Shown here: positions 5,065 to 56,358 of the stretch, piece after piece
Layout of the letters: every line of letters begins with the position of its first letter
How positions within the stretch are numbered: the first letter of the stretch is position 1
Source of the DNA: Sycon ciliatum
Taxonomy: Eukaryota > Porifera > Calcarea > Leucosolenida > Sycettidae
DNA: 64,000 bases
Reading direction: 5' to 3'
Assembly (NCBI RefSeq): GCF_964019385.1
Contig: NC_088654.1
Coordinates: 13,039,700-13,103,699, forward strand
Translations under genes and position numbers: made by a program
The notes under the pieces: generated by a model
Seen by the model: the letters and a program-made list of their open reading frames with translations, nothing else
Databases searched by the model: none
Told to the model about the DNA's origin: nothing

Positions 5065-5122
5065 ATTTGTGTGAAATGCAGTGCTCTCTTGAGTGTAGGC
5101 AGGTTGCCTGCAAACAATTCAA

Positions 5123-5123
<1 letters not shown>

Positions 5124-36834: not shown

Positions 36835-36840
36835 CATTCT
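36835..36840. repeat. Left 6-bp target duplication (CATTCT) of the palindromic element
   Basis: CATTCT sits immediately outside the left end and again at 54971-54976 immediately outside the right end. The boundary was set independently, by where the inverted-repeat match stops. Confidence 0.8.
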
Positions 36841-36867
36841 AGTAGTAAGTGCGGGGCAGGTTCTGGC

Positions 36868-37050
36868 CCACTTTTTGACCTTTGACCTTTGGGCCAAATA
36901 AGGCACACTGCATCGGTCGTGCTTGGTCTGGCTCGGGGACTCCTCCAGGGTTTGACCTTTGACCTTTGGGTTAAATAAGGCACACTGTGTCGGGGGCGCT
37001 TGGTCTGGCCCCGGGACTCCCCCAGGGTTTGCCCTTTGACCCTGTCATGC
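36868..37050. repeat. Subterminal tandem repeat with TGACCTTTGACCT motifs
   Basis: Two copies of an about 95-bp unit contain TGACCTTTGACCTTTGGG, followed by AAATAAGGCACACTG. The motif is a direct repeat of AGGTCA spaced by one base, the classical DR1 nuclear-receptor site. The same block is mirrored at about 54765-54945 in the right arm. Confidence 0.7.
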
Positions 37051-37154
37051 CATAAACGTGCCATAAAGGTTCTTTTCCGTGGCGAACGTGCACTGTGCAC
37101 GTTCGGTGCGTTCATTGAGTTCGCACCAATGAGTAGTAAAATACGTACTCCACC

Positions 37155-37411
37155 CTGATTCGCACATCGTCGTCGTAGATGTGCATTGCATGCAGTGAAT
37201 GACATAATTATTGCACATGCGCGCATACGCACACGGAGCGTGCGACCTTCAGTGCCCCTGCGTGTGGAAAAGAAGGCAGTGCAACACAACTTCACAAGGT
37301 GGACTAGTACACGTGTCATTATACTACTTCCTGATTCGCACTTCGTAGATGTGCAGCAAACAAGTTCACGTTCCGTGCATTCGTTTTATTCGCACATCGT
37401 AGATGTGCACT
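37155..37411. repeat. Three GCACATC/GATGTGC hairpins
   Basis: Sequences of the form TTCGCACATCG-TAGATGTGCA occur at about 37161-37184, 37337-37356 and 37390-37410, each able to form a seven- to eight-base-pair hairpin. They are mirrored at about 54400-54655. Confidence 0.7.
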
Positions 37412-38021
37412 GATTGACAAGTTGCCCATACAGAGCATGCCTAATCGGTTTTTCGATCGGTTAAGAGAATGTTCAAAATCGGCCATATTATGAGCCCCAA
37501 GATCAGAATTCGGCTCAACGTAGTACTTGAAGTCCCATTACGTCATGTACATTTACACACAAGCACACTCTGTTGAAGCACTGAAACATCGATTTTCGGC
37601 GAATTCAACATGCGAAATTTGAAAATTCGGCGAAAAGATGGGTGATTTCTTCAAAACCACTTTTTTCGGCGAATTTGTCGGCCAGCCGATTTGGGAAATG
37701 CCTACTGTCCATGCAGGTGCATTAGATGCATATTTCTATTTTGATCGGGATACAGTTAGAATCAACCGGCTACGCCCGGAGTATCATGCATCAAAACAAT
37801 TATTGAAGGGGTGTCACAGTGAAGCAGCGTTGCTACGCACCACAAATCCCCTCTGCACTGCATCGAATCTATACTGGAGAATCCAGAGTGACCAGCAAAG
37901 AGTCACAACCCGCGGGTATCCAGTCACACTAAGGCATATCCACCATTCCCCACATATTCACTGTAACAAAACACAATACTGTTCACTATAATACACTTTT
38001 ATTTAAATGGACTTGGATGAG

Positions 38022-38904
38022 TCTGTAGAAGAGAACACAATGCACGCACACGCACGCATGCGCGGACACACACACACACACACACACACACGCGCGCGCG
38101 CGCACACACATCTAGGTTATAGTGCTATACACGTATCTAGGGTTTAGGAAGCACGAGAATATGTCGAAGCACCCACACATATCCCTTCATGCAGTGTACT
38201 TCAGTAGCCCAACACATTACGACCGCTATAGCACAGGACCATCACAAAACACATTACGACTGCTATAGCACAGGACCATCACAAAACACTACACACTGTT
38301 ACTACACTGCACACACAGTTACTACACTACGCCTGTTACAAGTACTTACAAACACTATTAGTGTCACGAATACGAAAGCAGGGTAAGACAAGAGGATACG
38401 AAAAAAGTAAGTATCGCTATAACGAGGGGGTAAGTATACATGTAAACAGAGCAGTGCTTACTTACAGGGTCCTAATACGCTCTACGGCGTCCTGGTAGTC
38501 GGACTGCAACAGCAGGCCGACTTGCCGACCCTCCCAGTAACGGGTTAGATGGGCCGCACCCGCCAGGTGGGCGACCACGGCTGGGCCTCCCACCAGCCTT
38601 TCTCCACTGTAAACACGAAAGAAACCGCAGAAAGCACAGTGTCATAGAGCTCTTTTGTTGGGGGAGAGAGCTAGGAGCACTGCACACTTACCAAGTATCA
38701 CAATATATGATAAGAAAGAGGCGGCGCTTGACGCACCGCCTCAGGTGCTGAAACAGGGGTATTACCCCTGTAAGGCGAACACCGCAGTGACACGTGAACG
38801 TCATTTCTACAGACTGTTTTCAGGATAATGATACTGAAGTGAAGGTGTGAACCGCAAAGCAAGACCTTTACCTTCTTCCTGTCGAATTCGCTCCCCAGCT
38901 GCAT
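38022..38904 (-). CDS. Small spliced gene of the palindrome (left copy)
   Basis: Mirror of the gene at 52913-53825. Exons on the minus strand are 38904-38872, 38747-38692, 38606-38466 and a last exon starting at 38022. All splice sites are the same as in the right arm. Product unknown. Confidence 0.6.
38066..38109. repeat. (CA)n(CG)n alternating purine-pyrimidine tract
   Basis: About 23 bp of CA repeats followed by CG repeats, a Z-DNA-prone tract, lies inside the small spliced gene's last intron. It is mirrored near 53711-53746. Confidence 0.85.
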
Positions 38905-39079
38905 ACCGACATCATCCGCTAAAACCCAATCATACCAAGTAACGCAAAGGTCATCAGTTGACCTTTTGGACTTTTCAACTCTTATCCAAAACCACCAGGA
39001 GGAAAAAACCAGGATGAAGAAGACGTCAGTTGTAGAAGCGTTTGTGGAGGAGTTGTTACATTATTCTCAGTAAATAGAT

Positions 39080-39838
39080 ATGGCTGATACATTCGGTGTA
39101 GACTTGGACGACCGGTCGTGGTCTCTCACCACGGATCCTTTACTAATAGAAAGGCGGACGCCAATAAGAACTGTTGTGGAGTTGGCAGATCAAAACGCGC
39201 AGCAAGAAATTTGGCACGTCGATGGTAGACTCCATCGGGAGGACGGACCAGCTCTTGTTGATAGTAGGGGAGTGTCCGCCTGGTGCTATGGAGGTCGCCT
39301 TCATCGCGTTAATGAACCTGCTTGGATAGGACGGGGTAGCATTGAGTACTACCTCAACGGTATCCGTCATAGAGCCGGCGGTCCTGCAGTCAGTTATTGT
39401 GACGCCACATGCTGTATTCTACGGTGGTATCACCACGGAAGGCTCCACAGGGAGAATGCGCCAGCGGTGATACGCAGGGAAGGTAACAATCGTGTACGGG
39501 AGTGGTACCGATACAACCTTCGGCATAGGGAAGATGGACCTGCTTTCATCTCTCGGGTGGAGGAGGGTATCTATCAGTGGTACGTCAACGGGGTGTATTA
39601 CGGTAGCCACCATCAAGACCAGGCAATACACCCCATGGAGCTGCAGTACATCAATGTAGTGCCTACTAAGGTAGACTCGTCAGCAATAAGTCATGAGCCC
39701 ATTTGTGTGATTTGTCAGGATACCCTGGATCGTCCTCTATCCAAGTTGGAGTGCGGTCATGAATTTCACTTCCACTGTATGAAGGAGTGGATCAGTTCTG
39801 CCCCAGCCCAACTTGCCCAACCTGCCGCTACTCCATGA
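39080..39838 (+). CDS. MORN-like-repeat protein with C-terminal RING-H2 (left copy)
   Basis: The 252-aa frame has about six repeats of the form W-x3-G-x-x-HR-x3-PA between residues 45 and 172 (for example GRLHREDGPA). Such repeats are common in giant viruses and phages. A RING-H2 finger follows: C209, C212, C225, H227, H230, C233. The last two metal ligands are missing in this frame: after residue 240 the expected CPTC lies one frame over, open to a stop at 39865-39867. A RING would make it an E3 ubiquitin ligase. The frame break is identical in both arms, so it predates the palindrome or reflects one source error. Start: ATG at 39080 after an in-frame TAG (39071-39073). The small spliced gene lies head-to-head about 175 bp away. 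Confidence 0.75.
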   Translation: MADTFGVDLDDRSWSLTTDPLLIERRTPIRTVVELADQNAQQEIWHVDGRLHREDGPALVDSRGVSAWCYGGRLHRVNEPAWIGRGSIEYYLNGIRHRAGGPAVSYCDATCCILRWYHHGRLHRENAPAVIRREGNNRVREWYRYNLRHREDGPAFISRVEEGIYQWYVNGVYYGSHHQDQAIHPMELQYINVVPTKVDSSAISHEPICVICQDTLDRPLSKLECGHEFHFHCMKEWISSAPAQLAQPAATP

Positions 39839-40329
39839 CTGCTGAGGACTTGGTTGAGTTCTTGTAGTAATACATTACACAGTTGCATGTGGGCGACTAC
39901 GAATGACCAGTCATGTGTTACAGATGGACACGGACACGCCACCCTAAGTAGCCATGAGCGGCTATTTGGACAAGGACAACAAAGCACCTCGTGGGCGGCC
40001 AAGGTTGACACTAGCCACAAGTCTGGTCGCTCAGTTGAATAAGCTGGGTGTGCCCATGAAGACCATGGAAGACCTTTCCAGGTGCCGGCAACATGCAGAG
40101 GACAAGACAGACTGGAAGAAACTGTGCAGCTCGACACTCGAGGACAAATCAGTATCAGCAGCTACTACACCTTGCTGATGATACTCACAAGACAGAAGTG
40201 GGAAAAAAACACTGAATTTCTTTATTTAGTGCTCAACTACGCGAAATGTGTTTTATTATTATTATTATTATTATACATGTTCAACTGTACACAGACTGGC
40301 TGACTGCCATTCTCTACCACACATTACCG

Positions 40330-41232
40330 GACACTGTTGTGGTTGTCGTCGTTATCGTCGTCGTCATTGTTGATGTTGTTGTCGGTTGTTGTCGTCGTTA
40401 TCGTCGTCGTTGTTGATGTTGTTATTGGTTGTTGCAGTCGGTTGTTGGTTGTTATTGGTTGTTGCTGTCGGTTGTTGGTTGTTATTGTTGATTGTTGTCG
40501 GTTGTTGTTGGCTGTTGGATGTTGTTGTCGGTTGTTGTCGGTTGTTGTTGGTTATTGTTGGTTGTTGTTGGTTGTTGTTGGGCGTTGTTGGTTGTTGTCG
40601 GTTGTTGTCGGTTGTTGTCAGGTGTTGTTGGCTGTTGTTGGTTGTTGTTGTCGGTTGTTGTCGGTTGTTGGGTGTTGTTGTCGGTTGTTGGGTGTTGTTG
40701 TCGGTTGTTGGGTGTTGTTGTTGGTTAGTGTTGGTTGGTGTTGGTTGTTGTTGGTTGTTGTCGGTTGTTGTCCGTTGTTGTTGGTTGTTGTTGGTTGTTG
40801 TTGGTTGTTGTTGGCTGTTGTTGGTTGTTGTTGTTTGTTGTTGTCGGTTGTTGGTTGTTGTTGTTTGTTGTTGCTGGTTGTAGTTGGTTGTTGTCAGTTG
40901 TTGTTGTTTGTTGGATGTTGTTGTCGGTTGTTGTCTGTTGTTGTCGGTTGTTGTCGGTTGTTGTTGGTTGTTGTTGGTTGTTGTTGGCTGTTGTTGGTTG
41001 TTGTTTGTTGTTGTTGGTTGTTGTTGTTTGTTGTTGTCGGTTGTTGGTTGTTGTTGTTTGTTGTTGTTGGTTGTAGTTGTTTGTTGTCAGTTGTTGTTTG
41101 TTGTTGGATGTTGTTGTCGGTTGTTGTCGGTTGTTGTCGGTTGTTGTCGGTTGTTGTTGGTTGTTGTTGCCTGTTGTTGGTTGTTTTTGGTTGTTGTTGG
41201 TTGTTGTCGGTTGTTGTCGGTTGTTGTGTTTT
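40330..41232. repeat. Decanucleotide minisatellite GGTTGTTGTY (left arm)
   Basis: About 90 variants of a 10-bp unit (GGTTGTTGTC or GGTTGTTGTT) fill 0.9 kb. All frames stay open and give low-complexity VVGCC or TTTDNN peptides, which are not genes. The mirrored copy at 50570-51482 has the same order of variants. Confidence 0.92.
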
Positions 41233-41658
41233 AATCGTTATTTTGTTAATTATCCAGGAGGATGTTGCTATGATCCAGTACCATTTTTTCGCATATATGA
41301 GACAAGTTTGTGTAACGTTAGTGTGACGTGGGGTATGCTGATTGGATGTGAGGTGGTGAGAGTATGCTGATTGGCCGATAAAAATTAGTGGAAGGGATAA
41401 AGTAATGCGCTGCTTGTGCAGCGTAACCAAACACATGGTCTGTGGGAAACACCCTAGTAAAACAAAATAAAATAATAATAACATGAATTGCCCCCGGCAC
41501 TTGAGAGACTCGAGCCCCGCCACCTTGTTCAAATCGGACTTGGTAGCTTCATACTGGAACTTAATCTTCTTCTTTTTGAGGTATGACCGTACAAAACGCG
41601 CTTGGATTTTTTCATTTTATTTTATTTTTTTTATTTTTGTTTTTTCATTGCAACTTTT

Positions 41659-42018
41659 TTAGCAGATAGCAACCTTTTTAGCAGACTCGTGAAACAACGG
41701 TGAATCTGGAACGAATAAATGGTCCATGTCAAAGGCATGACGAGTCTCGAAGTCTTCACATTCATGATGGAACCTTGTCATGATTGACGCATTCCTTGAT
41801 GGTGCGCACATGAAATCACCCTGGCTCATCTTTTCCAATTCCATTCTTTTCACATCCTGCAACCCATACCCTACTAGTATCAGTGGGGATGCTAGAATCA
41901 GAAGAGGCAAGGCAGCACTCTTCCGTGGATGTATTACTCGACACAACACCACCCATACTTGTTTTCTAGAAGTTTTGACTATAATGATATATTGCAGCAG
42001 GAAGTAGTATACAGTCAA
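41659..42018 (-). CDS. Hypothetical hydrophobic ORF of the palindrome (left copy)
   Basis: The 119-codon frame contains one strongly hydrophobic stretch (ALPLLILASPLILVGYG) followed by a charged C-terminus. It lacks a good ATG near its 5' end, so it may be the last exon of a spliced gene or begin at an internal Met. It lies about 60 bp after the 256-aa gene. Kept in both arms with three or four amino-acid changes. Confidence 0.45.
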   Translation of the reverse strand: MTVYYFLLQYIIIVKTSRKQVWVVLCRVIHPRKSAALPLLILASPLILVGYGLQDVKRMELEKMSQGDFMCAPSRNASIMTRFHHECEDFETRHAFDMDHLFVPDSPLFHESAKKVAIC

Positions 42019-42374
42019 ATAGGATAGGATAAGAATGAATGATCAACTGTCTGATAAAGAATGCAGTTCATTAAAGACTTATTGGAAGGTCTCTACCAGC
42101 TGATCGTCATGTTGGACGGCGACACTGCATAATGATATGAAGCTCTCAGTTAGCTGTTTCAGTTCCGTGGTAGAAAGTGTCATGTGTGCGTCCAGAGAAC
42201 GATGAAAACATCTGGGGTCCACGTTGATGCAGACGATTGGGGCAACAGCAAGACGTACCTTCAACGCTTGCTCGTCAATGTCGAGGGAGACTTCCCCGGG
42301 GTAGATGAAAACATCTTGTTCCACATCCAGTTCGAAACAGCTGGTCGGGACTAGCTTGCTTTCACCGTTGATAT

Positions 42375-42815
42375 TATAGCAATAAAAACTGCTTTATGGC
42401 AGTTTTCTAAAAAAAGTTATTGTGTTCTAGTCCATGGACCTCGTCTAAAAAGTAAGAAATTAACGAAATGTGATAGCTGAAAATTAAAATTTCACACAAA
42501 ACCTCACAATAATCACATCACTTGAAATGCTGCTTTCAACCAGGGAGTAGTACAATACTACTCCCTGCTTTGAACACTAAACTTATACTGCACCAACAAT
42601 TGGCAACATGCATGCATAGGAAAGAGGATCGCGAGGGGAAAAGGTCTTCTGCATGTAGCTTTTCATTCTGTGTGTGATTATTGTGAGGTTTTGTGTGAAA
42701 TTTTAATTTTCAGCTATCACATTTCGTTAATTTCTTACTTTTTAGACGGGGTCCATGGACTAGAACACAATAACTTTTTTTAGAAAACTGCCATAAAGCA
42801 GTTTTTATTGCTATA
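42375..42815. mobile_element. Fold-back MITE with about 140-bp inverted arms
   Basis: The ends are TATAGCAATAAAAACTGC and its inverse, and the arms remain almost identical for about 140 bp. In the loop lies a perfect palindrome, GGGAGTAGTA-CAA-TACTACTCCC (42546-42568). Confidence 0.85.
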
Positions 42816-43690
42816 ATTTCTTTTGTTTTTTCTGTCACCAATCAATGGAATGCCCTATATCAATATGTAAATGATGGCCTTCACATCATATCAATACCAT
42901 ATTATACGCATTGATGTGCAAGCCTTTTCTTGCAGAAAATGGCACTAGCATAATGCATGTTCTTCTGCGGGGAAACATGTGAGCAGTGGTGGTGATACTT
43001 TTTTTATACGGAGGTCATTCTGTGCATGTTGCTGTTGCAGAATTTCATGACTCTGTCATAAAATTGTCTTGCCTTTCAGATATTTCAGATTACTCCACCC
43101 TCAATCAGATTTATTTGAGAAATGTAGCCATGCGGCAGGTGCGTGTCGCAGATGTTTTTGTTGATTCTGTGTTTATAATGGTTTATAGTCATGGGTATCG
43201 TGATAAGGTCATCCAGCATCATATTGAAACTGAAATCGTAATCCTGTTGATGTCGATACAACTTTTGGAAGTAGTTCAATGACTTCAAACTGTTAGTCCA
43301 CGATTGTCTAAAACAACACAGCAAAGGAGGAACAATAAACATGTATGAAAATGTAAACGAATACATTGCTGAGTCCAAAACCTCGTTCCAACAACTACAC
43401 TGATCCTGAGGAGAAAAGGGGCAAGGCTATGGTTGGAGGTACTGAGAGATAAACAAGGCACTCCACAATAATAAAATCTTACACATCTTTTGGTGAGTAT
43501 GAATGATATCCAGTCGAACCTCTTTAGGACGAACACCAAGGGACCGATGGTATTTATTCTGTGAGCTTAACCTATTTTATAACCAGAGAATACAATTATA
43601 TCTCCAATAGACATACGAATAGATTTCTTCTACAGCGAAAGATTCTAAGCCACACCGACTCATCGTCTCGTATGAAACAATTGAGTCACT

Positions 43691-43936
43691 AGAGAGATTC
43701 TGCAAAACGAAAATGCGTACAAACCTTCGCTCTACATCATGAAGTGCGAAACTTGCAGGGAACGCGAAATGAACTGTCGTAGGAAATTTCGTGAGATCGG
43801 GTCATGGCGTAAGTGCACTTGGCCCGCGCAAACTACGAAAATGTGCAGAACGCAAAGTTCGTGCAAAAATTCGCACACACTTTCGCAAGGACTGTCGCGA
43901 AACTTCGTTCGAATTTTCGTTTTGCAGAACCTCTCT
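43691..43936. mobile_element. MITE with AGAGAGRTTCTGCAAAACG ends
   Basis: The terminal repeats are about 24 bp with one mismatch, and ACT flanks both sides (43688-43690, 43937-43939). The ends resemble the AGGGAGGTT elements at 11398 and 25548. Confidence 0.82.
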
Positions 43937-45857
43937 ACTGAACCTTTCTTTAGCAACATGACGGCAACTGAAACAACAACAGAGAAAATACGATACATGT
44001 ACAGCACATTCTTGCAGGTACTAGAAACAGATTGCAGATCGTAATTCTTGCTCTACCGGCACGAAACTTTATTTGAGGCAGTGCAATCTCGGCGGTACTC
44101 ACAAATCAAACAGCCCAGACTTGAGTAAACAAATCCAATCATACAAGTACGAGATTTTCACGAGACGAGACTGTACCCATTGGCTTGTTTCGTATGAAAC
44201 AAACAAGTTACTGAACCTCTCAACAATAGAGATTTCCCCTGATATACGAATTTATTATTTTTGCAAACTCGGTCAATTGGTACTTGAACCTTTCCCTCCA
44301 GATTGGGAACTGTCAACGATAGTATGCCACTGACCAGTGCCTTACTTGTAACGTACCAATGTACAATGAATATGAGTATTTCGATAACACATCTAACATA
44401 AGCCTTACCGTCAAGAAGTTGAACTCGCGTTCTTCGCACACTGTAGACAAGGGCAAAGAGATAAAAATGGATCTAAATCCGAATAAAATCAGCACACGTT
44501 TCCGTTAATGAAAGGTGAACATAAGCAAATGAATCGAAGGAAACCGGTCAACTTAGAGATCACCTGTCATCGAGTATTCCGTAAAAGGAGGCCTCGCAGC
44601 TCGGCAGCAGAAAAGCAAAATTTAGAAAAGAGATCCTGTCAACTTTTCCATTATTTATTGCATTCCGCCCCAAAATCAGCACACTTTTCCTGAATGAAAG
44701 AGTCAACACAAGCAAATGAATCAAAGGCAACTGGTCAACTCACCTGTCATTGAGTAATATTCCGCGAAAGGAGGTCTCAGCAGCGCCGAAAAAGCCATGA
44801 GACGAAATATCCGAAACAGCTCATGCAAGAAGCAGTTCCAAAGAAGGAAGTTCCTCGCGCATGCACATCCGAACACGGATCCGCGGACTGCATGCACTGA
44901 ACACACTGTCTGCCGTGCACGTGCACAGCACACGGCTACCACCCGTTGGTAGATCTAATACCGAGCACCTTACGTAGAGACTTACGTAGCCTAAGTGAAA
45001 TACCGAGCACCTTACGTAGAAACTTACGTAGCATAGCGATGTCGTTTTTTCTGCCATGTGAACACAATAATAGAAAAGCTGACAGGATCGCTTTTCTAAA
45101 TACACCCGACATTGACCGTAGGACGAACGTGATGGGTAGAAGTTGGTCTTGATCTTCTCCACACGTCCTCTTCGGAGAGTGTCACGGAGCGATGGACAAG
45201 TCTTGATCAAGTTCGTAATGATGAACTCAGTGGACTCATTCAGTTCGATGTAAACCTGTCCTTGAGCATCTTTGCGAGCTGTTGCCGTACTACCACAGGC
45301 TGGTAGAGCTCCTGAAGGGAAGTACATCTTATAACCAGGCTTGTAGAAGGATCTACCTGATGACTTGTAGGACAGTTGCATGTCCTCCTGAAACCCATCT
45401 ACCACAATCTCTTTGTGGAGCTTGGTAGGAGCAGGTGACACATAGCGACGCTTAGCCGGTACTGCCTTCGAAGAGAGCACAACTTGAGGAGGGTCAGCAG
45501 GAAGAGCGGAATTCTTCCTCACCCGCCGCTCGTATAGGTTATCCATCTTCCAGAAAGCGAAGGGAGAACAACTCATCAGCACTGTATTCGATGAACGAAT
45601 GACTCGACTACAGGACAACCACCCGTATTTATACAAGGCAGAGACGGAGGCGGGTTGAAGTGATAAAATATGTGTCAGCTAGGTCAACCAATCACCATCA
45701 AGCCCGCCAAAAACATTTGACCACTCAGCATTGAGCCCACCAAAAACATTTGACCAACCAGCATCAAACCCGCCAAAAGCATTTTGTCCAATCAGCGGCA
45801 TGCCCACCAAAATCATATCTCATCTTAAAGATTCCTTACATGATACCGCCACTTTAG

Positions 45858-46419
45858 GGAGCATCTCATAAGTTCGCATTTATTTTCCAAACGTAACGCA
45901 TTTCGAATAGACTTTACCCCCCTACCTCCCCCCTCTATTCGAAAGTCTTATCGCACATTTTCTGTGTTTATCTACATGTTCTGCACACATCCATGCCCCA
46001 TGCTATGGTATGCTTATGTACATGTACATGGATATGAATGTTTTGCTAGTGTGGTAGTGAATGGCATACAGTAGTACCGCATCTACTGAGTACAAGTACA
46101 ATCAATGACATGTACACGTACATAAACACAGTTCCTCCACAACAACTAAAAAGTCTGTACTGCTGTAAAAGCTGACCAGGTACACGGTTTGATCAGGCTG
46201 GTGTGACATTTGACACCTCTGAGTAGCCTACATGCATGTAGTACAGGGTTAGCTGATCTGCAAACACAGGTAGATCTACACCTAAACACACTAATTTGCT
46301 GAAGTGATCTAGAAAATGTGCGAACTGTCATTTTTCTATTCGAAAAGGGCGCTACCCCCCTACCCCCGTTTCGAAATGCGTTACGTTTAGAAACAAAATG
46401 CGAACTTATGAGATGCTCC
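45858..46419. mobile_element. MITE in the left arm, GGAGCATCTCATAAG ends, TTTAG duplication
   Basis: The inverted ends extend about 50 bp (GGAGCATCTCATAAGTTCGC onward). TTTAG is duplicated (45853-45857, 46420-46424), and the right arm shows the uninterrupted site near 48671. It replaces the last ten codons of the left TFIIB-like gene with ten from the MITE. Confidence 0.9.
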
Positions 46420-47160
46420 TTTAGTGAACTGATACAGTATGGAAATAAGATCAGAGTCAAACGTGTGCAAGTTCTGAATCACGTAATCAAGTGAATAGGT
46501 TTCCCAACAATAGGTATCAATCAATGATGCCATAAGAGATGTATCAGATGGAGATAAAATCAGCAAATTCGTACGCAACGTGGACAGTTGAGAAGAAGAC
46601 ACCATCCTGGTCAACTCCATGAGATGCAGTACATATAGGAGTGGAAAATGCTGAGGAAGAGGTTTCATGATTCGACTGAACCTCAACCATGATACATTGC
46701 TACGAGGTAAGTAGGAACGCAGTTTACGTAGTACATCCACATTCGTATCGTATACTTTGCAGGATAATGCTATAGCATAGTTTATACTCTTGTACAAACA
46801 GGATTTTTTCATCGCAAGTATCTGCTCCCGAAGAGGGTGTACGCAAAGCTGATCGGATAAGAGTTCAGTTTGCGAAAGAAAATGCAAAAGATGACGATCC
46901 ACACCGCTTAACCGCTCATGTACCGCGTAAGGCTTCTTCATCAAACTACATCTCCTATGCACATCATCTTCAGGGAAGTAAATCACCGCCATGACAAGTC
47001 CACACGAAGAACACACGTATCTTACTTCATGTAAAACATGATCAAGATGTTGACACTGTTTTTCCTCCCCGTATTGCTCTTTTTCTTCTTCTTCTTCATC
47101 CTTCTCATGAAGTCTCCTTTCACGTACATAAGCAGGTAAGATCTTAAATTCAGAATCCAT
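46387..47160 (-). CDS. TFIIB-like protein of the palindrome (left copy, MITE-altered C-terminus)
   Basis: An N-terminal zinc ribbon (C-x-H-x11-C-x2-C, with YVCSSCGLV as in TFIIB) follows a very acidic Glu-rich segment. A helical region of about 170 residues with cyclin-like character comes next (CLYKSINYAIALSCKVY, then a second helical half). TFIIB-type factors bring RNA polymerase to promoters, and virus-like elements of the giant-virus kind often carry their own. Frame intact from ATG 47160, with a TATATAAAG box about 55 bp upstream. The last ten residues come from the MITE at 45858-46419. Assignment rests on motif and layout only. Confidence 0.55.
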   Translation of the reverse strand: MDSEFKILPAYVRERRLHEKDEEEEEKEQYGEEKQCQHLDHVLHEVRYVCSSCGLVMAVIYFPEDDVHRRCSLMKKPYAVHERLSGVDRHLLHFLSQTELLSDQLCVHPLREQILAMKKSCLYKSINYAIALSCKVYDTNVDVLRKLRSYLPRSNVSWLRFSRIMKPLPQHFPLLYVLHLMELTRMVSSSQLSTLRTNLLILSPSDTSLMASLIDTYCWETYSLDYVIQNLHTFDSDLISILYQFTKGASHKFAFCF

Positions 47161-47272
47161 CTTCACCCCTCACCAACATCCTCATTATGACACTATATCC
47201 AGCATGATATCTACTTTATATAACCAATCCTATCCAGGGCAATTATCAGGTACAACCATTGGGGTAGATGAC

Positions 47273-47303
47273 CTCATACCCTCTCCGACGGAGAGGGTAT
47301 GAG
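47273..47303. promoter_or_regulatory. Palindrome centre with divergent TATA promoters on each side
   Basis: CTCTCCG and CGGAGAG flank a single A at 47288, and the symmetry continues without spacer through both arms. About 65 bp out on each side a TATATAAAG-type box (right: 47352-47361) precedes the TFIIB-like start codon by about 55 bp. The centre therefore acts as a symmetrical bidirectional promoter region. Confidence 0.7.
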
Positions 47304-47415
47304 GTCATCTACCCCAATGGTTGTACCTGATAATTGCCCTGGATAGGATTGGTTATATAAAGTAGATATCATGCTGGATATAGTGTCATAATGAGGATGT
47401 TGGTGAGGGGTGAAG

Positions 47416-48708
47416 ATGGATTCTGAATTTAAGATCTTACCTGCTTATGTACGTGAAAGGAGACTTCATGAGAAGGATGAAGAAGAAGAAGAAAAAGAGC
47501 AATACGGGGAGGAAAAACAGTGTCAACATCTTGATCATGTTTTACATGAAGTAAGATACGTGTGTTCTTCGTGTGGACTTGTCATGGCGGTGATTTACTT
47601 CCCTGAAGATGATGTGCATAGGAGATGTAGTTTGATGAAGAAGCCTTAGGGCCGATTACCACTACGGTACCGTGAGTGCCGTGCCGTGAGTACCCATGGT
47701 GATTTGCTCACGTGAGGGGCAGTTTTGGCGCGAGTTCATTCCGTGGCTCCTGCCGTACCGCGCCGTGGACATTCCGGTGCCGAGGGCCTCTGGGGGGTGG
47801 AAATGGCATGCCGTGGTATTCCGCGAGGTCGAATGCAGTGAGTAGTAGGTATTTTACTACTCCCTGAAAGGAAGTTTTTTCTTTCTTTTGTATTTGTGGC
47901 ACGAAGTTTTTTCTTGGCTTTTGGCTTTTCGATTGGTTGATTCTTGAGCTTTCTCCAGTCATCTCCCCGGCCCCCGCTATTTTCCCTCATTACCAAAGTC
48001 AGAAATTGATTAAAAAAAATGGTGATCCGGCCTGCCGACGGAATGCACGGAATGACCGTGCGCAGGTGTAAATCACTCTCAGCTTCAAGCTCGTACCGTG
48101 GGGTACACGTGACCTACCCAAATCGACGGCACGGCACTCACGGTACCATAGTGGGAATCGGCCCTTACGCGGTACATGAGCGGTTAAGCGGTGTGGATCG
48201 TCATCTTTTGCATTTTCTTTCGCAAACTGAACTCTTATCCGATCAGCTTTGCGTACACCCTCTTCGGGAGCAGATACTTGCGATGAAAAAATCCTGTTTG
48301 TACAAGAGTATAAACTATGCTATAGCATTATCCTGCAAAGTATACGATACGAATGTGGATGTACTACGTAAACTGCGTTCCTACTTACCTCGTAGCAATG
48401 TATCATGGTTGAGGTTCAGTCGAATCATGAAACCTCTTCCTCAGCATTTTCCACTCCTATATGTACTGCATCTCATGGAGTTGACCAGGATGGTGTCTTC
48501 TTCTCAACTGTCCACGTTGCGTACGAATTTGCTGATTTTATCTCCATCTGATACATCTCTTATGGCATCATTGATTGATACCTATTGTTGGGAAACCTAT
48601 TCACTTGATTACGTGATTCAGAACTTGCACACGTTTGACTCTGATCTTATTTCCATACTGTATCAGTTCACTAAAGTGGCGGTATCATGTAAGGAATCTT
48701 TAAGATGA
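47416..48708 (+). pseudogene. TFIIB-like gene of the palindrome (right copy), interrupted by a MITE
   Basis: The first 77 codons (ribbon region) are intact, then a 516-bp MITE with a TTA duplication interrupts codon 78. The remainder continues from about 48165 to its natural stop at 48708. This arm therefore preserves the original C-terminus but not a continuous frame. Confidence 0.8.
47649..48164. mobile_element. Harbinger-type MITE in the right arm, TTA duplication
   Basis: The ends are GGGCCGATTACCACTACGGT and the inverse GGGCCGATTCCCACTATGGT, with about 35 bp of inverted repeat. TTA flanks both sides (47646-47648, 48165-48167), and the left arm gives the empty site. Terminal GGGCC and a 3-bp TWA duplication are typical of PIF/Harbinger MITEs. 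Confidence 0.92.
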
Positions 48709-48893
48709 GATATGATTTTGGTGGGCATGCCGCTGATTGGACAAAATGCTTTTGGCGGGTTTGATGCTGGTTGGTCAAATGTTTTTGGTGGGCTCAATGC
48801 TGAGTGGTCAAATGTTTTTGGCGGGCTTGATGGTGATTGGTTGACCTAGCTGACACATATTTTATCACTTCAACCCGCCTCCGTCTCTGCCTT

Positions 48894-48901
48894 GTATAAA
48901 T
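48894..48901 (+). promoter_or_regulatory. TATA box of the 256-aa gene
   Basis: TATAAATA lies 51 bp upstream of the chosen start codon. It is mirrored in the left arm at about 45627-45634. Confidence 0.65.
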
Positions 48902-48951
48902 ACGGGTGGTTGTCCTGTAGTCGAGTCATTCGTTCATCGAATACAGTGCTG

Positions 48952-49722
48952 ATGAGTTGTTCTCCCTTCGCTTTCTGGAAGATGGATAACCTATACGAGC
49001 GGCGGGTGAGGAAGAATTCCGCTCTTCCTGCTGACCTTCCTCAAGTTGTGCTCTCTTCGAAGGCAGTACCGGCTAAGCGTCGCTATGTGTCACCTGCTCC
49101 TACCAAGCTCCACAAAGAGATTGTGGTAGATGGGTTTCAGGAGGACATGCAACTGTCCTACAAGTCATCAGGTAGATCCTTCTACAAGCCTGGTTATAAG
49201 ATGTACTTCCCTTCAGGAGCTCTACCAGCCTGTGGTAGTACGGCAACAGCTCGCAAAGATGCTCAAGGACAGGTTTACATCGAACTGAATGAGTCCACTG
49301 AGTTCATCATTACGAACTTGATCAAGACTTGTCCATCGCTCCGTGACACTCTCCGAAGAGGACGTGTGGAGAAGATCAAGACCAACTTCTACCCATCACG
49401 TTCGTCCTACGGTCAATGTCGGGTGTATATCAACGGTGAAAGCAAGCTAGTCCCGACCAGCTGTTTCGAACTGGATGTGAAACAAGATGTTTTCATCTAC
49501 CCCGGGGAAGTCTCCCTCGACATTGACGAGCAAGCGTTGAAGGTACGTCTTGCTGTTGCCCCAATCGTCTGCATCAACGTGGACCCCAGATGTTTTCATC
49601 GTTCTCTGGACGCACACATGACACTTTCTACCACGGAACTGAAACAGCTAACTGAGAGCTTCATATCATTATGCAGTGTCGCCGTCCAACATGACGATCA
49701 GCTGGTAGAGACCTTCCAATAA
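48952..49722 (+). CDS. Unknown 256-aa protein of the palindrome (right, intact copy)
   Basis: I do not recognise this protein. The N-terminal 60 residues are basic and Pro/Ala-containing (likely disordered). A compact mixed region follows (about residues 75-256) with a FYKPGYKMYFPSG segment and a C-terminal DIDEQALKVRLAVAP stretch. There is no signal peptide or membrane segment. The ATG at 48952 follows a TATA box; the next in-frame ATG is at 48982. It lies between the TFIIB-like gene and the hydrophobic ORF on the same strand. The other copy is broken, so this is the only functional candidate. Confidence 0.7.
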   Translation: MSCSPFAFWKMDNLYERRVRKNSALPADLPQVVLSSKAVPAKRRYVSPAPTKLHKEIVVDGFQEDMQLSYKSSGRSFYKPGYKMYFPSGALPACGSTATARKDAQGQVYIELNESTEFIITNLIKTCPSLRDTLRRGRVEKIKTNFYPSRSSYGQCRVYINGESKLVPTSCFELDVKQDVFIYPGEVSLDIDEQALKVRLAVAPIVCINVDPRCFHRSLDAHMTLSTTELKQLTESFISLCSVAVQHDDQLVETFQ

Positions 49723-49782
49723 GTCTTTAATGAACTGCATTCTTTATCAGACAGTTGATCATTCATTCTTATCCTATCCTAT

Positions 49783-50142
49783 TTGACTGTATACTACTTC
49801 CTGCTGCAATATATCATTATAGTCAAAACGTCTAGAAAACAAGTATGGTTGGTGTTGTGTCGAGTAATACATACACGGAAGAGTGCTGCCTTGCCTCTTC
49901 TGATTCTAGCATCCCCACTGATACTAGTAGGGTATGGGTTGCAGGATGTGAAAAGAATGGAATTGGAAAAGATGAGCCAGGGTGATTTCATGTGCGCACC
50001 ATCAAGGAATGCGTCAATCATGACAAGGTTCCATCATGAATGTGAAGACTTCGAGACTCGTCATGCCTTTGACATGGACCATTTATTCGTTCCAGATTCA
50101 CCGTTGTTTCACGAGTCTGCTAAAAAGGTTGCTATCTGCTAA
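49783..50142 (+). CDS. Hypothetical hydrophobic ORF of the palindrome (right copy)
   Basis: Mirror of 42018-41659: one membrane-like stretch followed by a charged tail ending in KKVAIC. It begins without an ATG; an AG acceptor-like site precedes it at about 49824. Possibly a terminal exon. Confidence 0.45.
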   Translation: MTVYYFLLQYIIIVKTSRKQVWLVLCRVIHTRKSAALPLLILASPLILVGYGLQDVKRMELEKMSQGDFMCAPSRNASIMTRFHHECEDFETRHAFDMDHLFVPDSPLFHESAKKVAIC

Positions 50143-50569
50143 AAAAGTTGCAATGAAAGAACAAAAATAAAAAAAATAAAATAAAATGAAAAAATCCAAG
50201 CGCGTTTTGTACGGTCATACCTCAAAAAGAAGAAGATTAAGTTCCAGTATGAAGCTACCAAGTCCGATTTGAACAAGGTGGCGGGGCTCGAGTCTCTCAA
50301 GTGCCGGGGGCAATTCATGTTATTATTATTTTATTTTGTTTTACTAGGGTGTTTCCCACAGACCATGTGTTTGGTTACGCTGCACAAGCAGCGCATTACT
50401 TTATCCCTTCCACTAATTGTTATCGGCCAATCAGCATACTCTCACCACCTCACATCCAATCAGCATACCCCACGTCACACTAACGTTACACAAACTTGTC
50501 TCATATATGCGAAAAAATGGTACTGGATCATAGCAACATCCTCCTGGATAATTAACAAAATAACGATTA

Positions 50570-51482
50570 AAACACAACAACCGACAACAACCGACAACAA
50601 CCAACAACAACCAAAAACAACCAACAACAGGCAACAACAACCAACAACAACCGACAACAACCGACAACAACCGACAACAACCGACAACAACATCCAACAA
50701 CAAACAACAACTGACAACAAACAACTACAACCAACAACAACAAACAACAACAACCAACAACCGACAACAACAAACAACAACAACCAACAACAACAAACAA
50801 CAACCAACAACAGCCAACAACAACCAACAACAACCAACAACAACCGACAACAACCGACAACAACCGACAACAACCGACAACAACCGACAACAACATCCAA
50901 CAACCAACAACAACTGACAACAACCAACTACAACCAGCAACAACAAACAACAACAACCAACAACCGATAACAACAAACAACAACAACCAACAACAGCCAA
51001 CAACAACCAACAACAACGAACAACAACCAACAACAACGGACAACAACCGACAACAACCAACAACAACCAACACCAACCAACACTAACCAACAACAACACC
51101 CAACAACCGACAACAACACCCAACAACCGACAACAACACCCAACAACCGACAACAACCGACAACAACAACCAACAACAGCCAACAACACCTGACAACAAC
51201 CGACAACAACCGACAACAACCGACAACAACCAACAACGCCCAACAACAACCAACAACAACCAACAATAACCAACAACAACCGACAACAACCGACAACAAC
51301 ATCCAACAGCCAACAACAACCGACAACAATCAACAATAACAACCAACAACCGACAGCAACAACCAATAACAACCAACAACCGACAGCAACAACCAATAAC
51401 AACATCAACAACGACGACGATAACGACGACAACAACCGACAACAACATCAACAATGACGACGACGATAACGACGACAACCAC
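50570..51482. repeat. Decanucleotide minisatellite (right arm)
   Basis: Inverse of the tract at 40330-41232, with a few unit differences. It lies between the hydrophobic ORF and the RING gene. Confidence 0.92.
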
Positions 51483-51978
51483 AACAGTGTCCGGTAATGT
51501 GTGGTAGAGAATGGCAGTCAGCCAGTCTGTGTACAGTTGAACATGTATAATAATAATAATAATAAAACACATTTCGCGTAGTTGAGCACTAAATAAAGAA
51601 ATTCAGTGTTTTTTCCCACTTCTGTCTTGTGAGTATCATCAGCAAGGTGTAGTAGCTGCTGATACTGATTTGTCCTCAAGTGTCGAGCTGCACAGTTTCT
51701 TCCAGTCTGTCTTGTCCTCTGCATGTTGCCGGCACCTGGAAAGGTCTTCCATGGTCTTCATGGGCACACCCAGCTTATTCAACTGAGCGACCAGACTTGT
51801 GGCTAGTGTCAACCTTGGCCGCCCACGAGGTGCTTTGTTGTCCCTGTCCAAATAGCCGCTCATGGCTACTTAGGGTGACGTGTCCGTGTCCATCTGTAAC
51901 ACATGACTGGTCATTCGTAGTCGCCCACATGCAACTGTGTCATGTATTACTACAAGAACTCAACCAAGTCCTCAGCAG

Positions 51979-52737
51979 TCATGGAGTAGCGGCAGGTTGG
52001 GCAAGTTGGGCTGGGGCAGAACTGATCCACTCCTTCATACAGTGGAAGTGAAATTCATGACCGCACTCCAACTTGGATAGAGGACGATCCAGGGTATCCT
52101 GACAAATCACACAAATGGGCTCATGACTTATTGCTGACGAGTCTACCTTAGTAGGCACTACATTGATGTACTGCAGCTCCATGGGGTGTATTGCCTGGTC
52201 TTGATGGTGGCTACCGTAATACACCCCGTTGACGTACCACTGATAGATACCCTCCTCCTCCCGAGAGATGAAAGCAGGTCCATCTTCCCTATGCCGAAGG
52301 TTGTATCGGTACCACTCCCGTACACGATTGTTACCTTCCCTGCGTATCACCGCTGGCGCATTCTCCCTGTGGAGCCTTCCGTGGTGATACCACCGTAGAA
52401 TACAGCATGTGGCGTCACAATAACTGACTGCAGGACCGCCGGCTCTATGACGGATACCGTTGAGGTAGTACTCGATGCTACCCCGTCCTATCCAAGCAGG
52501 TTCATTAACGCGATGAAGGCGACCTCCATAGCACCAGGCGGACACTCCCCTACTATCAACAAGAGCTGGTCCGTCCTCCCGATGGAGTCTACCATCGACG
52601 TGCCAAATTTCTTGCTGCGCGTTTTGATCTGCCAACTCCACAACAGTTCTTATTGGCGTCCGCCTTTCTATTAGTAAAGGATCCGTGGTGAGAGACCACG
52701 ACCGGTCGTCCAAGTCTACACCGAATGTATCAGCCAT
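51979..52737 (-). CDS. MORN-like-repeat protein with C-terminal RING-H2 (right copy)
   Basis: It has the same 252-aa frame as 39080-39838, differing by one residue (Glu for Val at position 160). It carries the identical frame break before the last two RING cysteines. In the alternative frame the finger completes and ends at about 51950. Confidence 0.75.
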   Translation of the reverse strand: MADTFGVDLDDRSWSLTTDPLLIERRTPIRTVVELADQNAQQEIWHVDGRLHREDGPALVDSRGVSAWCYGGRLHRVNEPAWIGRGSIEYYLNGIRHRAGGPAVSYCDATCCILRWYHHGRLHRENAPAVIRREGNNRVREWYRYNLRHREDGPAFISREEEGIYQWYVNGVYYGSHHQDQAIHPMELQYINVVPTKVDSSAISHEPICVICQDTLDRPLSKLECGHEFHFHCMKEWISSAPAQLAQPAATP

Positions 52738-52912
52738 ATCTATTTACTGAGAATAATGTAACAACTCCTCCACAAACGCTTCTACAACTGACGTCTTCTT
52801 CATCCTGGTTTTTTCCTCCTGGTGGTTTTGGATAAGAGTTGAAAAGTCCAAAAGGTCAACTGATGACCTTTGCGTTACTTGGTATGATTGGGTTTTAGCG
52901 GATGATGTCGGT

Positions 52913-53825
52913 ATGCAGCTGGGGAGCGAATTCGACAGGAAGAAGGTAAAGGTCTTGCTTTGCGGTTCACACCTTCACTTCAGTATCATTATCCTGAAAA
53001 CAGTCTGTAGAAATGACGTTCACGTGTCACTGCGGTGTTCGCCTTACAGGGGTAATACCCCTGTTTCAGCACCTGAGGCGGTGCGTCAAGCGCCGCCTCT
53101 TTCTTATCATATATTGTGATACTTGGTAAGTGTGCAGTGCTCCTAGCTCTCTCCCCCAACAAAAGAGCTCTATGACACTGTGCTTTCTGCGGTTTCTTTC
53201 GTGTTTACAGTGGAGAAAGGCTGGTGGGAGGCCCAGCCGTGGTCGCCCACCTGGCGGGTGCGGCCCATCTAACCCGTTACTGGGAGGGTCGGCAAGTCGG
53301 CCTGCTGTTGCAGTCCGACTACCAGGACGCCGTAGAGCGTATTAGGACCCTGTAAGTAAGCACTGCTCTGTTTACATGTATACTTACCCCCTCGTTATAG
53401 CGATACTTACTTTTTTCGTATCCTCTTGTCTTACCCTGCTTTCGTATTCGTGACACTAATAGTGTTTGTAAGTACTTGTAACAGGCGTAGTGTAGTAACT
53501 GTGTGTGCAGTGTAGTAACAGTGTGTAGTGTTTTGTGATGGTCCTGTGCTATAGCAGTCGTAATGTGTTTTGTGATGGTCCTGTGCTATAGCGGTCGTAA
53601 TGTGTTGGGCTACTGAAGTACACTGCATGAAGGGATATGTGTGGGTGCTTCGACATATTCTCGTGCTTCCTAAACCCTAGATACGTGTATAGCACTATAA
53701 CCTAGATGTGTGTGCGCGCGCGCGTGTGTGTGTGTGTGTGTGTGTCCGCGCATGCGTGCGTGTGCGTGCATTGTGTTCTCTTCTACAGACTCATCCAAGT
53801 CCATTTAAATAAAAGTGTATTATAG
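52913..53825 (+). CDS. Small spliced gene of the palindrome (right copy)
   Basis: Splice signals define exons 52913-52945 (donor GTAAAG), 53070-53125 (acceptor TTTCAG, donor GTAAGT), 53211-53351 (acceptor TTTACAG, donor GTAAGTAAG) and one starting at 53789 (acceptor TTCTACAG). The last carries a stop at 53823-53825 and an AATAAA at 53808. Joined frames stay open and give about 88 residues. There is a basic start, a Cys in each of the second and third exons, and an Ala/Leu-rich helix with RYWEGRQVG. An acceptor-like TTTTAG at 52893-52898 suggests a further 5' exon. If the third donor is not used, translation ends at a TAA right after it. Product unknown; transcript data would settle it. Confidence 0.6.
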
Positions 53826-54173
53826 TGAACAGTATTGTGTTTTGTTACAGTGAATATGTGGGGAATGGTGGATATGCCTTAGTGTGACTGGATACCCGCG
53901 GGTTGTGACTCTTTGCTGGTCACTCTGGATTCTCCAGTATAGATTCGATGCAGTGCAGAGGGGATTTGTGGTGCGTAGCAACGCTGCTTCACTGTGACAC
54001 CCCTTCAATAATTGTTTTGATGCATGATACTCCGGGCGTAGCCGGTTGATTCTAACTGTATCCCGATCAAAATAGAAATATGCATCTAATGCACCTGCAT
54101 GGACAGTAGGCATTTCCCAAATCGGCTGGCCGACAAATTCGCCGAAAAAAGTGGTTTTGAAGAAATCACCCAT
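53820..54173 (-). other. 117-codon open frame, probably non-coding
   Basis: An ATG-started frame exists here and in the left arm (37638-37991). It overlaps the last exon of the spliced gene and begins in a GGCGAA/TTCGCC inverted-repeat stretch, with composition unlike the other genes. Listed because both arms keep it. Confidence 0.25.
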
Positions 54174-55010
54174 CTTTTCGCCGAATTTTCAAATTTCGCA
54201 TGTTGAATTCGCCGAAAATCGATGTTTCAGTGCTTCAACAGAGTGTGCTTGTGTGTAAATGTACATGACGTAATGGGACTTCAAGTACTACGTTGAGCCG
54301 AATTCTGATCTTGGGGCTCATAATATGGCCGATTTTGAACATTCTCTTAACCGATCGAAAAACCGATTAGGCATGCTCTGTATGGGCAACTTGTCAATCA
54401 GTGCACATCTACGATGTGCGAATAAAACGAATGCACGGAACGTGAACTTGTTTGCTGCACATCTACGAAGTGCGAATCAGGAAGTAGTATAATGACACGT
54501 GTACTAGTCCACCTTGTGAAGTTGTGTTGCACTGCCTTCTTTTCCACACGCAGGGGCACTGAAGGTCGCACGCTCCGTGTGCGTATGCGCGCATGTGCAA
54601 TAATTATGTCATTCACTGCATGCAATGCACATCTACGACGACGATGTGCGAATCAGGGTGGAGTACGTATTTTACTACTCATTGGTGCGAACTCAATGAA
54701 CGCACCGAACGTGCACAGTGCACGTTCGCCACGGAAAAGAACCTTTATGGCACGTTTATGGCATGACAGGGTCAAAGGGCAAACCCTGGGGGAGTCCCGG
54801 GGCCAGACCAAGCGCCCCCGACACAGTGTGCCTTATTTAACCCAAAGGTCAAAGGTCAAACCCTGGAGGAGTCCCCGAGCCAGACCAAGCACGACCGATG
54901 CAGTGTGCCTTATTTGGCCCAAAGGTCAAAGGTCAAAAAGTGGGCCAGAACCTGCCCCGCACTTACTACTCATTCTTCCATGCTGTGGACTTGCACAAAG
55001 CCAAGTTTGC

Positions 55011-56358
55011 TCATGCGATGGGATGTTGCTGATGGGTGTACTGAGCTAGCTTGTTGCGAATACTCAAGTCAGCCTGATCAAACTCCGCATTGGGCTGATC
55101 GTTCGGCCCAGGATGGTACTTGTCGTATGTCGCATCGTCGATGAGCCATGTTGCTTCCACTGGACATCTCCAGCGCTCGCATACATTGTGAATGGCAGAG
55201 CAGACAATAGCTACACGACTGGCAAACTCTGAGTCATTCAAGTTATTGTGCACCAGGACCCTAAATCGCCCTTTCAGCCTCCCAAACGCCTGCTCTACCA
55301 CTCGCCTGGTACGGATTAGTCGATAGTTGAATGTCCGCTGCCAGGAAAGCAGGGCCGCATTGTCATCATAGCACTTCATGAGCGTGGCAGACAAAGGAAA
55401 CGCAGAATCGCCAACAAGATACGGACGAATGTACGAGCCTTGGATCGTGAACTTTTCAGTTCCAGTCTCCTTGATCGTAAGCCACTTCCGCTCACCAATC
55501 TTGCGTGCCAGCCGAGATGAAGCGTAAACACTAGCGTCACCGGCCGACCCAGCATGCTCAGCATTCACATTCAGGAACAAGCCGCATGCATCAACTGTGC
55601 CTAGGATGATGATGGCAGAGTACTTCTTATAACACCAGAAGCAGTCGGGGAATTGCACCTGCAGCTTTTTGATTTTCATAAAAGTTCCGTCCACAGCTCC
55701 TCTGCATCTCTCAAGCTTTGCTAAATCTTTAAATTTTTGCATGGTTTTCTTCAGCTCTTTCCCTTCTGGGAAGCGGATTGACCGTGCTGCCATGTCTTTA
55801 AACAAGATATCTACGGTTGAATGAACCCTTTTTTTTTTTTTTTTTTTTTTTTACCCTGTGGACGGCGGTGGACTTGCTGATTGCGTACTGTCTCGCCAGT
55901 TCCCGGAAGGTAGGCCCATGAGCCAGCCAGTGCAACGTGATGGCCAGTCGCTTGTGGCTAGGAATAGACGCTCTCCATTTTGTGTCCTTTCTTGCCAGCA
56001 ATCGTCCGAACTCCTCGTGAAATCGCCAAAATTCATCCTTGCCCATGCGCAAATGATCAATATACTTCGCGTTTTCGAAATCCGGAACACGATACTGCAT
56101 AGTCATGAGCGGGTAGTTACGGAGGAAATCAGTCTCCGAGACTCCTTGACCCCTCAGCGCGGACCAGAAGCGACGGCGTTTCTTTCTTCCCAGAAGTGCG
56201 TCTGCATACGTACGAACTCCGAGGATGGCAACTATGGGTATCCATGCTGGAATCGATGATGGAATATGCAGTGAACCACTACCTCGCTGGACGGTCGTAG
56301 TGGAAGTGCCCATGTCGCACACGTCCATCAGGCTGTTTGACAGGACATTCAGTGCCAT
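55011..56358 (-). pseudogene. Harbinger transposase (HARBI1-like), broken by a poly(A) insertion
   Basis: The N-terminal part (56358 to 55853) has a helix-turn-helix with RLAITLHWLAHG, FRELARQYAISKSTAVHR. The C-terminal part (55824 to 55011) is a DDE_4-type nuclease with GAVDGT (Asp), AGSAGDASVY, LVGDSAFPL (Asp) and RRVVEQAFGRLKGRF (Glu). All three catalytic residues are present. A 24-base A tract on the coding strand, flanked by duplicated AGGGT, separates the two and shifts frame; the flanking codons join in frame without it. The stop is 35 bp from the palindromic element's right target duplication. Transcription converges on the Myb/SANT gene. Confidence 0.9.
55825..55857. repeat. Poly(T) tract flanked by ACCCT duplicates
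   Basis: ACCCT at 55825-55829 and 55853-55857 bracket the run of 24 T (55829-55852). The 28-bp addition is one more than a multiple of three, which explains the frame change. Confidence 0.8.

Follow-up and report, generated by a model that had tools for sequence, protein, structure and literature searches.

A palindromic element in the genome of Sycon ciliatum

The window analyzed in this study is a stretch of 64,000 nucleotides from the sponge Sycon ciliatum (contig NC_088654.1, positions 13,039,700 to 13,103,699), and it contains a mobile element which is an inverted repeat of itself from one end to the other. Self-alignment of the window confirmed the palindrome that a first-pass annotation had described, with a mirror running from 36841 to 54970 (first bases AGTAGTAAGT, last bases ACTTACTACT) and turning at a single base, position 47288, in CTCTCCG-A-CGGAGAG. 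The six bases directly outside both ends are CATTCT, and beyond them the flanks are unmirrored, with pairing at 9 of the 39 positions that follow outwards, which is about the level of chance. For the six other inverted-repeat pairs in the window, no duplication of 2–12 bp exactly at the ends was found. The left arm has a length of 10,448 nt and the right arm of 7,683 nt (centre base included in both), a difference accounted for by three insertions that are each present in one arm; once these are subtracted, the element is about 14.3 kb long. The arms are 99.73% identical (7,125 of 7,144 aligned columns agree), the 19 differences being 18 substitutions and the centre base, and small insertions or deletions between them are located in simple repeats. 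Since the opposite arm keeps the intact empty site in each case, the three insertions postdate the palindrome. The features of the element, with terminal inverted repeat abbreviated as TIR and open reading frame as ORF, are as follows:

36835–36840, no strand: left target-site duplication CATTCT, read from the sequence
36841–36850, forward strand: terminal motif AGTAGTAAGT, of the Maverick (AGT)2 type
36841–47287, forward strand: left arm, 10.4 kb including two insertions, from self-alignment
36874–37041, forward strand: subterminal 77-bp tandem repeat; mirror copy at 54770–54937
37638–37991, forward strand: ORF of 117 residues, no family above cut-off; mirror at 53820–54173, reverse strand
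39080–39838, forward strand: left LHREDGPA-repeat and RING-finger ORF, C-terminal frame shifted relative to database relatives
40367–41227, forward strand: left TTGTTGTTGG decamer array; right copy at 50574–51412
41659–42018, reverse strand: left ORF of 119 residues
42374–45099, no strand: insertion of about 2.73 kb in the left arm only, breaking the left ORF2; TA flanks both sides and no duplication is demonstrable
44821–45636, reverse strand: 5′ part of the left ORF2, broken by the insertion
45858–46419, no strand: insertion in the left arm only, with TIR GGAGCATCTC and duplication TTTAG, cutting the 3′ end of the left TFIIB-like gene
46387–47166, reverse strand: left gene for a TFIIB-like zinc-ribbon protein, its 3′ end replaced by the insertion
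47288, no strand: one-base palindrome centre; several other copies have an 8-nt loop at that point
47289–54970, reverse strand: right arm, 7.7 kb including one insertion, from self-alignment
47407–47646, forward strand: zinc-ribbon part of the right TFIIB-like gene, with a TATATAAAG box at 47354
47649–48164, no strand: insertion in the right arm only, with TIR GGGCCGATT and duplication TTA, splitting the right TFIIB-like gene
48165–48708, forward strand: remainder of the right TFIIB-like gene; the listed ORF starts at 48019 within the insertion
48892–49722, forward strand: right ORF2, intact, 256 codons if begun at the same internal ATG as its database relative; TATAAA-type box at 48895
49783–50142, forward strand: right ORF of 119 residues
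51979–52737, reverse strand: right LHREDGPA-repeat and RING-finger ORF with the identical frame shift
54961–54970, reverse strand: inverted terminal motif ACTTACTACT
54971–54976, no strand: right target-site duplication CATTCT, read from the sequence

Each arm thus comprises a TFIIB-like gene, ORF2 (250–290 residues), a 119-residue ORF, the decamer array, the repeat-RING ORF, a 117-residue ORF and the subterminal 77-bp repeats. The TATA box of the right-arm TFIIB-like gene lies about 66 bases from the palindrome centre. In this copy, insertions interrupt the left ORF2 as well as the TFIIB-like gene of each arm. As the same frame shift is present in the RING-finger ORFs of both arms, it either arose before there was a second arm or passed from one arm to the other by copying.

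The first-pass annotation had noted that the usual Maverick genes are absent, and in line with this, no Pfam match to a polymerase, integrase, capsid, ATPase or protease was obtained among 37 ORFs or frame pieces of the window copy, a set which is drawn mostly from the right arm and in which distant capsids could escape detection; pieces shorter than about 60 residues and the greater part of the 2.73-kb insertion are outside it. The same 37 pieces gave no match to a retroviral-type integrase, a search that was not extended to the genome as a whole. The window copy is best read as a decayed, non-autonomous member of its family, without detected polymerase, integrase or capsid genes. Relatives of the arm proteins in the databases form sets of 7, 5 and 876 sequences, the last for the repeat-RING protein, and the nearest database relative of the window TFIIB-like protein is P0001. 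A sequence search of the PDB yielded no match, the predicted structure of ORF2 (predicted local distance difference test score, pLDDT, of 35) was not used, and no locus of a relative outside the host genome was found in viral contigs, phage records or GTDB contigs. The pooled ratio of nonsynonymous to synonymous differences (pN/pS) was 0.66 for ORF2 (36 pairs from 9 sequences, without the copy C8 and the window left copy, and with a stop in two of the nine, the left arms of C12 and C10b) and 0.57 for the TFIIB-like gene (15 pairs from 6 sequences, without C10a, C13b, C8 and the window copy). P0002, a TFIIB-like cluster of 19 member sequences, begins with MDSDFDT, joins at YAAHERL and lacks the zinc ribbon; the join falls at the residue hit by the right-arm insertion of the window copy.

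Further copies in the host genome

The assembly (538,412,230 bases in 313 contigs, with the window at C13:13039700-13103699) was searched with the first 601 bases of the element, and 40 of 472 candidates were scored. This yielded a list of 41 terminal matches, with 24 arranged in 12 inverted pairs (window copy included) and 15 unpaired; the other two, a second start and a fragment, lie within one paired copy. All 12 listed pairs start with AGTAGT, end with ACTACT and are bounded by an exact 6-bp duplication, and these duplications are all different. Besides CATTCT, they are CACGTG, GTCGCC, GTGGAC, GATCAC, ACCTTA, AACTTG, AACCAG, TAGGCG and GTGGAG for the nine other copies read in two halves, and GATGCG and GGTGTC for two further pairs read at their ends only. 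The probability of about 1 in 4,096 which the first-pass annotation had given for a single 6-bp match is right, and such a match recurs in every one of the 12 inverted pairs listed genome-wide. The Maverick-type ends assigned to the window copy are likewise found in all of them. For the question whether the ends of other copies coincide with the motif and a 6-bp duplication, the answer is favourable for the 12 pairs; among the 15 unpaired matches, AGTAG stands at the boundary in 12 (in one of these offset by three bases) and is absent in three.

Ten of the 12 pairs were read through, and these are mirrored except for loops and for one-sided losses or insertions. In eight of the nine copies other than that of the window, 97–100% of each arm is mirrored at an identity of 98.3–99.96%. 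For the ninth, C13b, extra DNA in the left arm exceeds the offset limit of the alignment, so that 31–32% is counted as mirrored, while its main segments of 6.0 and 1.5 kb have mirror identities of 99.3 and 99.5%. The left arm of C13b (L033) also contains a second copy of the terminal 549 bp, at about 1491–2039 from the element start. Together, the 12 pairs with their ends and duplications and the ten copies mirrored up to the centre region strongly support the earlier proposal that the element inserted as a ready-made palindrome. The companion suggestion of a derivative consisting only of the TIRs of a larger element found no support, as none of the ten read-through copies runs past the centre into a unique core or other sequence, and a longer relative with such a core was not found among the copies read.

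Two of the unpaired copies were followed inwards. The one at C3:2938494, partly read, breaks inside the loop and lacks one of the TFIIB-like genes; its lone TFIIB-like gene beside the loop was considered as a unique core and rejected, since a one-sided loss starting inside the loop explains it. At C3:36951064, the piece read is still arm sequence and gives no information on the centre. At C5:27740478-27747243, two equally oriented terminal matches (L048, L049) lie 6.3 kb apart, and directly outside the end is sequence of element-internal appearance; this is perhaps a truncated tandem array.

Palindrome centres and identity of the arms

The turn lies at a common site in seven of the ten copies read and at new sites in the other three. 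The centre is formed by the 8-nt loop GACGTGTT in C1 and C2 and by its reverse complement AACACGTC in C3 and C12, two orientations that arise because the element lies in either direction. For the same reason, a flip-flop of a closed hairpin end is not claimed here. C7 has a one-base variant of this loop, GACACGTC, and the window copy a one-base symmetry, GAC. The centre of C10b, AACACGTCGACGTGTT, is the loop joined to its own complement, as opening of a hairpin at the loop edge followed by fill-in would give. The displaced centres lie inside genes. In C13b the turn falls within the 5′ portion of the TFIIB-like gene, where a loop of 20 nt is enclosed by ATCTT and AAGAT, two motifs that have the same spacing in the native arm. 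The turn of C8 is in ORF2; its loop measures about 130 nt, and the two alignments overlap by 13 nt. C10a turns at a one-base centre inside the TFIIB-like gene. A clear short native inverted repeat at the turn was observed for C13b only, and loops for C1, C2, C3, C12, C7, C13b and C8. As the copies with displaced centres also bear the 6-bp duplication, new palindromes seem to form first and to insert afterwards.

In nine of the ten copies, 0–4 sites (0–0.22%) distinguish the two arms over their first 1.8 kb, in contrast to a divergence of 0.44–6.33% between the left arms of the same nine; C13b was omitted owing to its extra insertion (162 differences). In a tree, for which the unpaired loci L016 and L018 (two of four entered) were disregarded, the two arms of each copy are neighbours except for C1, the right arm of which joins the nearly identical C10a. 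Since arms match within a copy and not between copies, they were either alike at insertion or kept alike thereafter. Some copies have a mosaic appearance: C2 is nearest to C1 by end-region distance, joins the window copy on the tree and is nearest to C12 in ORF2, so that for C2 and C12 versus C1 and the window copy the nearest relative changes between end region and ORF2. Such mosaics imply that recombination between copies happens.

Polymerase-bearing relatives

A search of the host genome with the DNA polymerase family PF03175 gave at least 52 matches (91 of 166 candidates scored), whereas none of 14 control genomes contained a match. Among the matches listed, 12 form six inverted pairs within 25 kb. 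Four of these six pairs were examined, two at length and two at their ends, and all four are mirrored, with a 6-bp duplication in three; some polymerase-bearing relatives are thus built as palindromes too. The arms of the element at C1:6022135-6039787 are 99.66% identical over 6.66 kb, to which an outer repeat region is added, and about 50 nt at the centre are unmirrored; the duplication is GTCGAT and the ends are AGTAGA. Each arm has a polymerase ORF (1,178 and 1,175 residues, the left one matching PF03175 at 5.4e-22) as well as a TFIIB-like gene that shares 46% identity with P0001. The element at C5:20216004-20230556, with arms 98.9% identical over 7.0 kb and the duplication ATAAAG, contains a polymerase part and a TFIIB-like gene, in this case 38% identical to P0001. 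At C2:9345866-9377310, where the ends were read, 1.1 kb is mirrored at 99.9%, the duplication is CATGAT, and the polymerase domains lie 3,394 bp from each end. The fourth pair extends from 2879744 to about 2895066 on C3, and its ends, the part that was read, are identical over 1,365 bp. The end motifs of the polymerase elements are AGTAGA or AGTAGTAGT. Apart from decamer-type repeats, the only DNA that the window arm has in common with the C1 polymerase element is 52 nt of the TFIIB-like gene.

The best listed polymerase match, C12:25925488, was considered as a candidate helper; it has broken polymerase-like frames alongside and no inverted repeat in the 20 kb read, so that no helper was identified there. 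In the polymerase of a palindromic relative (L054:4457-7993), a weak endonuclease VII-like match precedes the polymerase domain (2e-4, just under the Pfam cut-off).

Interpretation and alternative explanations

Intact vertebrate Mavericks have lengths of 12.7–24.6 kb, inverted repeats of 46–1,447 bp and 6-bp duplications, and their commonest ends are 5′-(AGT)2//(ACT)2-3′ (PMC8097293). The family described here resembles Mavericks/Polintons in its AGTAGT//ACTACT ends, 6-bp duplications, size range and inverted repeats (PMC8097293), and also in that relatives within the host genome encode a PF03175 DNA polymerase. It differs from them in that the repeats, of about 7 kb each as against 46–1,447 bp (PMC8097293), are the whole element and meet at the centre with no unique core in between, and in that the window copy has every gene twice and no detected integrase, capsid, ATPase or protease gene. 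In a literature search, none of the listed titles and abstract openings described palindromic Polintons or Mavericks. Self-complementary viral forms are known to arise naturally as snap-back genomes of adeno-associated virus (AAV), which are replicable with helper functions (PMC8235507). Like the palindromes studied here, these subgenomes are symmetric or loop-bearing self-complementary DNA and include head-to-head dimers; unlike them, they are defective particles of a parvovirus population and not a chromosomal multi-copy family with Maverick ends (PMC8235507). A fold-back origin has also been proposed for chromosomal inverted duplications, and the junctions of C13b and C8 resemble such events, which are chromosomal rearrangements and not a mobile family with fixed ends (PMC3907307, PMC10622511).

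All these observations make it probable that a Maverick/Polinton-like lineage exists in an inserted form that is palindromic from end to end, held as self-complementary DNA and remade by fold-back synthesis, with the window copy as a non-autonomous member. We infer the mode of replication and the source of the integrase as follows. The genetic unit would be one arm. A stopped or broken strand would fold back on a short inverted repeat and copy itself. The product would be a hairpin duplex whose small loop marks the later centre, and once synthesis had passed through that loop, the result would be a linear palindrome with the same Maverick end on either side. An integrase of Maverick type, provided by another source, would insert this palindrome and thereby generate the 6-bp duplication. 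Every fold-back would make the two arms identical anew, and one-arm insertions and mutations would accumulate afterwards.

Several observations do not fit this reading easily. Gene conversion between the arms after insertion could likewise keep them alike, the pieces scanned revealed neither a capsid gene nor, in elements with or without a polymerase, an integrase gene, and no replication intermediate was seen. The one-base centres of C10a and the window copy leave less room than a simple snap-back loop would require, the symmetry of C10a is incomplete, with a short stretch missing at one side of its centre, and the one-sided loss in C3:2938494 starts in the loop. Unpaired matches make up 15 of the 41 listed, with only 40 of the 472 candidates scored. 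The pN/pS values of ORF2 and the TFIIB-like gene are not low. With regard to the polymerase-bearing relatives, the C5 element has an unmirrored centre of about 0.6 kb and nested inverted duplications, and the C3 pair, of which only the ends were read, lacks the right 91 nt and a duplication. Neither of the two unpaired polymerase loci C11:3559499 and C14:7215556 has a mirror polymerase at the distance predicted from C1, which also counters the idea that all polymerase loci are palindromic.

Among the alternatives, an ordinary Maverick might have had its TIRs grown inwards, by recombination or end duplication, until the core was lost, and might then have been copied as ordinary double-stranded DNA. 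The inverted repeats of 46–1,447 bp in vertebrate Mavericks (PMC8097293) and the recombination between copies seen in the mosaics are in accordance with this. Still, arms match their partner far better than the arms of other copies, new centres inside genes are not expected from copying one master palindrome, and none of the copies read has a unique Maverick core, so that inward growth appears rather unlikely.

Poxvirus-type telomeres are closed hairpin ends with a resolving enzyme, and a rolling-hairpin lifestyle of this kind would make the palindrome an unresolved dimer junction. This would suit the 8-nt loop common to four of ten copies (C1, C2, C3, C12), the one-base variant found in C7, and the centre of C10b, where the loop is joined to its complement. 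The two loop forms, however, follow from element direction and are no proof of a flip-flop, C8, C10a and C13b were inserted with centres elsewhere, and the scanned pieces contain no resolvase-like gene; a dedicated hairpin end is unlikely.

Foldback-type transposons have very long inverted repeats, and the element could be a cut-and-paste DNA transposon of this type, unrelated to Mavericks and sharing AGT ends and 6-bp duplications by coincidence. Such a view would be consistent with the lack of a detected Maverick core gene in the window copy and with the little DNA shared between its arm and the C1 polymerase element. It is at odds with an end motif and a duplication length which both fit Mavericks, and with the TFIIB-like gene, through which the window copy is linked to palindromes of the host genome that have AGTAG ends and a polymerase, and we regard it as very improbable. 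The palindromic family is set apart from foldback-type transposons (mentioned in PMC6431247) by these ends and duplications as well as by its protein-coding arms and polymerase-bearing relatives. Finally, whole-genome amplification can yield artificial palindromes in long reads (PMC6218980), yet an artefact of assembly or amplification, or a chromosomal inversion-duplication after insertion, is hardly conceivable and was rejected in view of the unmirrored flanks with exact 6-bp duplications, the one-arm insertions, the divergence between arms and the recurrence of this layout at many loci.

The preferred reading, a Maverick-like lineage remade by fold-back, can be extended, tentatively and with the balance close to even, to an animal lineage of protein-primed Maverick-like elements that abandoned the one-copy genome for a self-complementary palindrome. 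Members with and without a polymerase would carry their genes twice and be re-symmetrised by fold-back in each round, the point of symmetry being movable with transposition kept, and both kinds, linked by the TFIIB-like gene, may form a multi-component system served by a polymerase-bearing palindrome. As a rule, a long and nearly perfect palindrome is unstable in a chromosome; the mobile family described here nevertheless has this inserted form, and one genome contains at least 12 paired copies of it. If fold-back holds true, protein-primed elements can live as self-complementary molecules, which would need no copying of two different ends and would keep both gene copies identical. The identity between the arms of a copy provides a built-in clock similar to the long terminal repeats of retroviruses, and the way in which the palindromes may be made can be read from chromosomes, in the loop that several copies share, in the loop joined to its complement and in the centres at new sites. 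The TFIIB-like gene can serve as marker for seeking the same layout in other animals.

Other repeats in the window

Just right of the element, at 55011-56358, transposase frames were found (DDE_Tnp_4, 2e-22), presumably of a Harbinger transposon, for which no convincing matching end is present on the other side of the element. A transposon at the target site that was split by the element was considered and rejected, given that the flanks share only simple-repeat and short matches.

Five related-looking ORFs of 179–204 residues are located at 7292-7855, 12481-13023, 18577-19116, 27462-28025 and 61026-61640, four of them in repeated blocks; the last, which was the only one scanned against Pfam, matched no family. 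At 2503-5129, inverted 690-nt repeats (99.9% identical, 1.25 kb apart) surround a reverse-transcriptase-like ORF of 624 residues, an arrangement which resembles a Penelope-like element. The region 28731-30154 contains a self-palindrome (28731-29403, 94.5%) that overlaps three tandem copies of 355 bp at 29089-30154.

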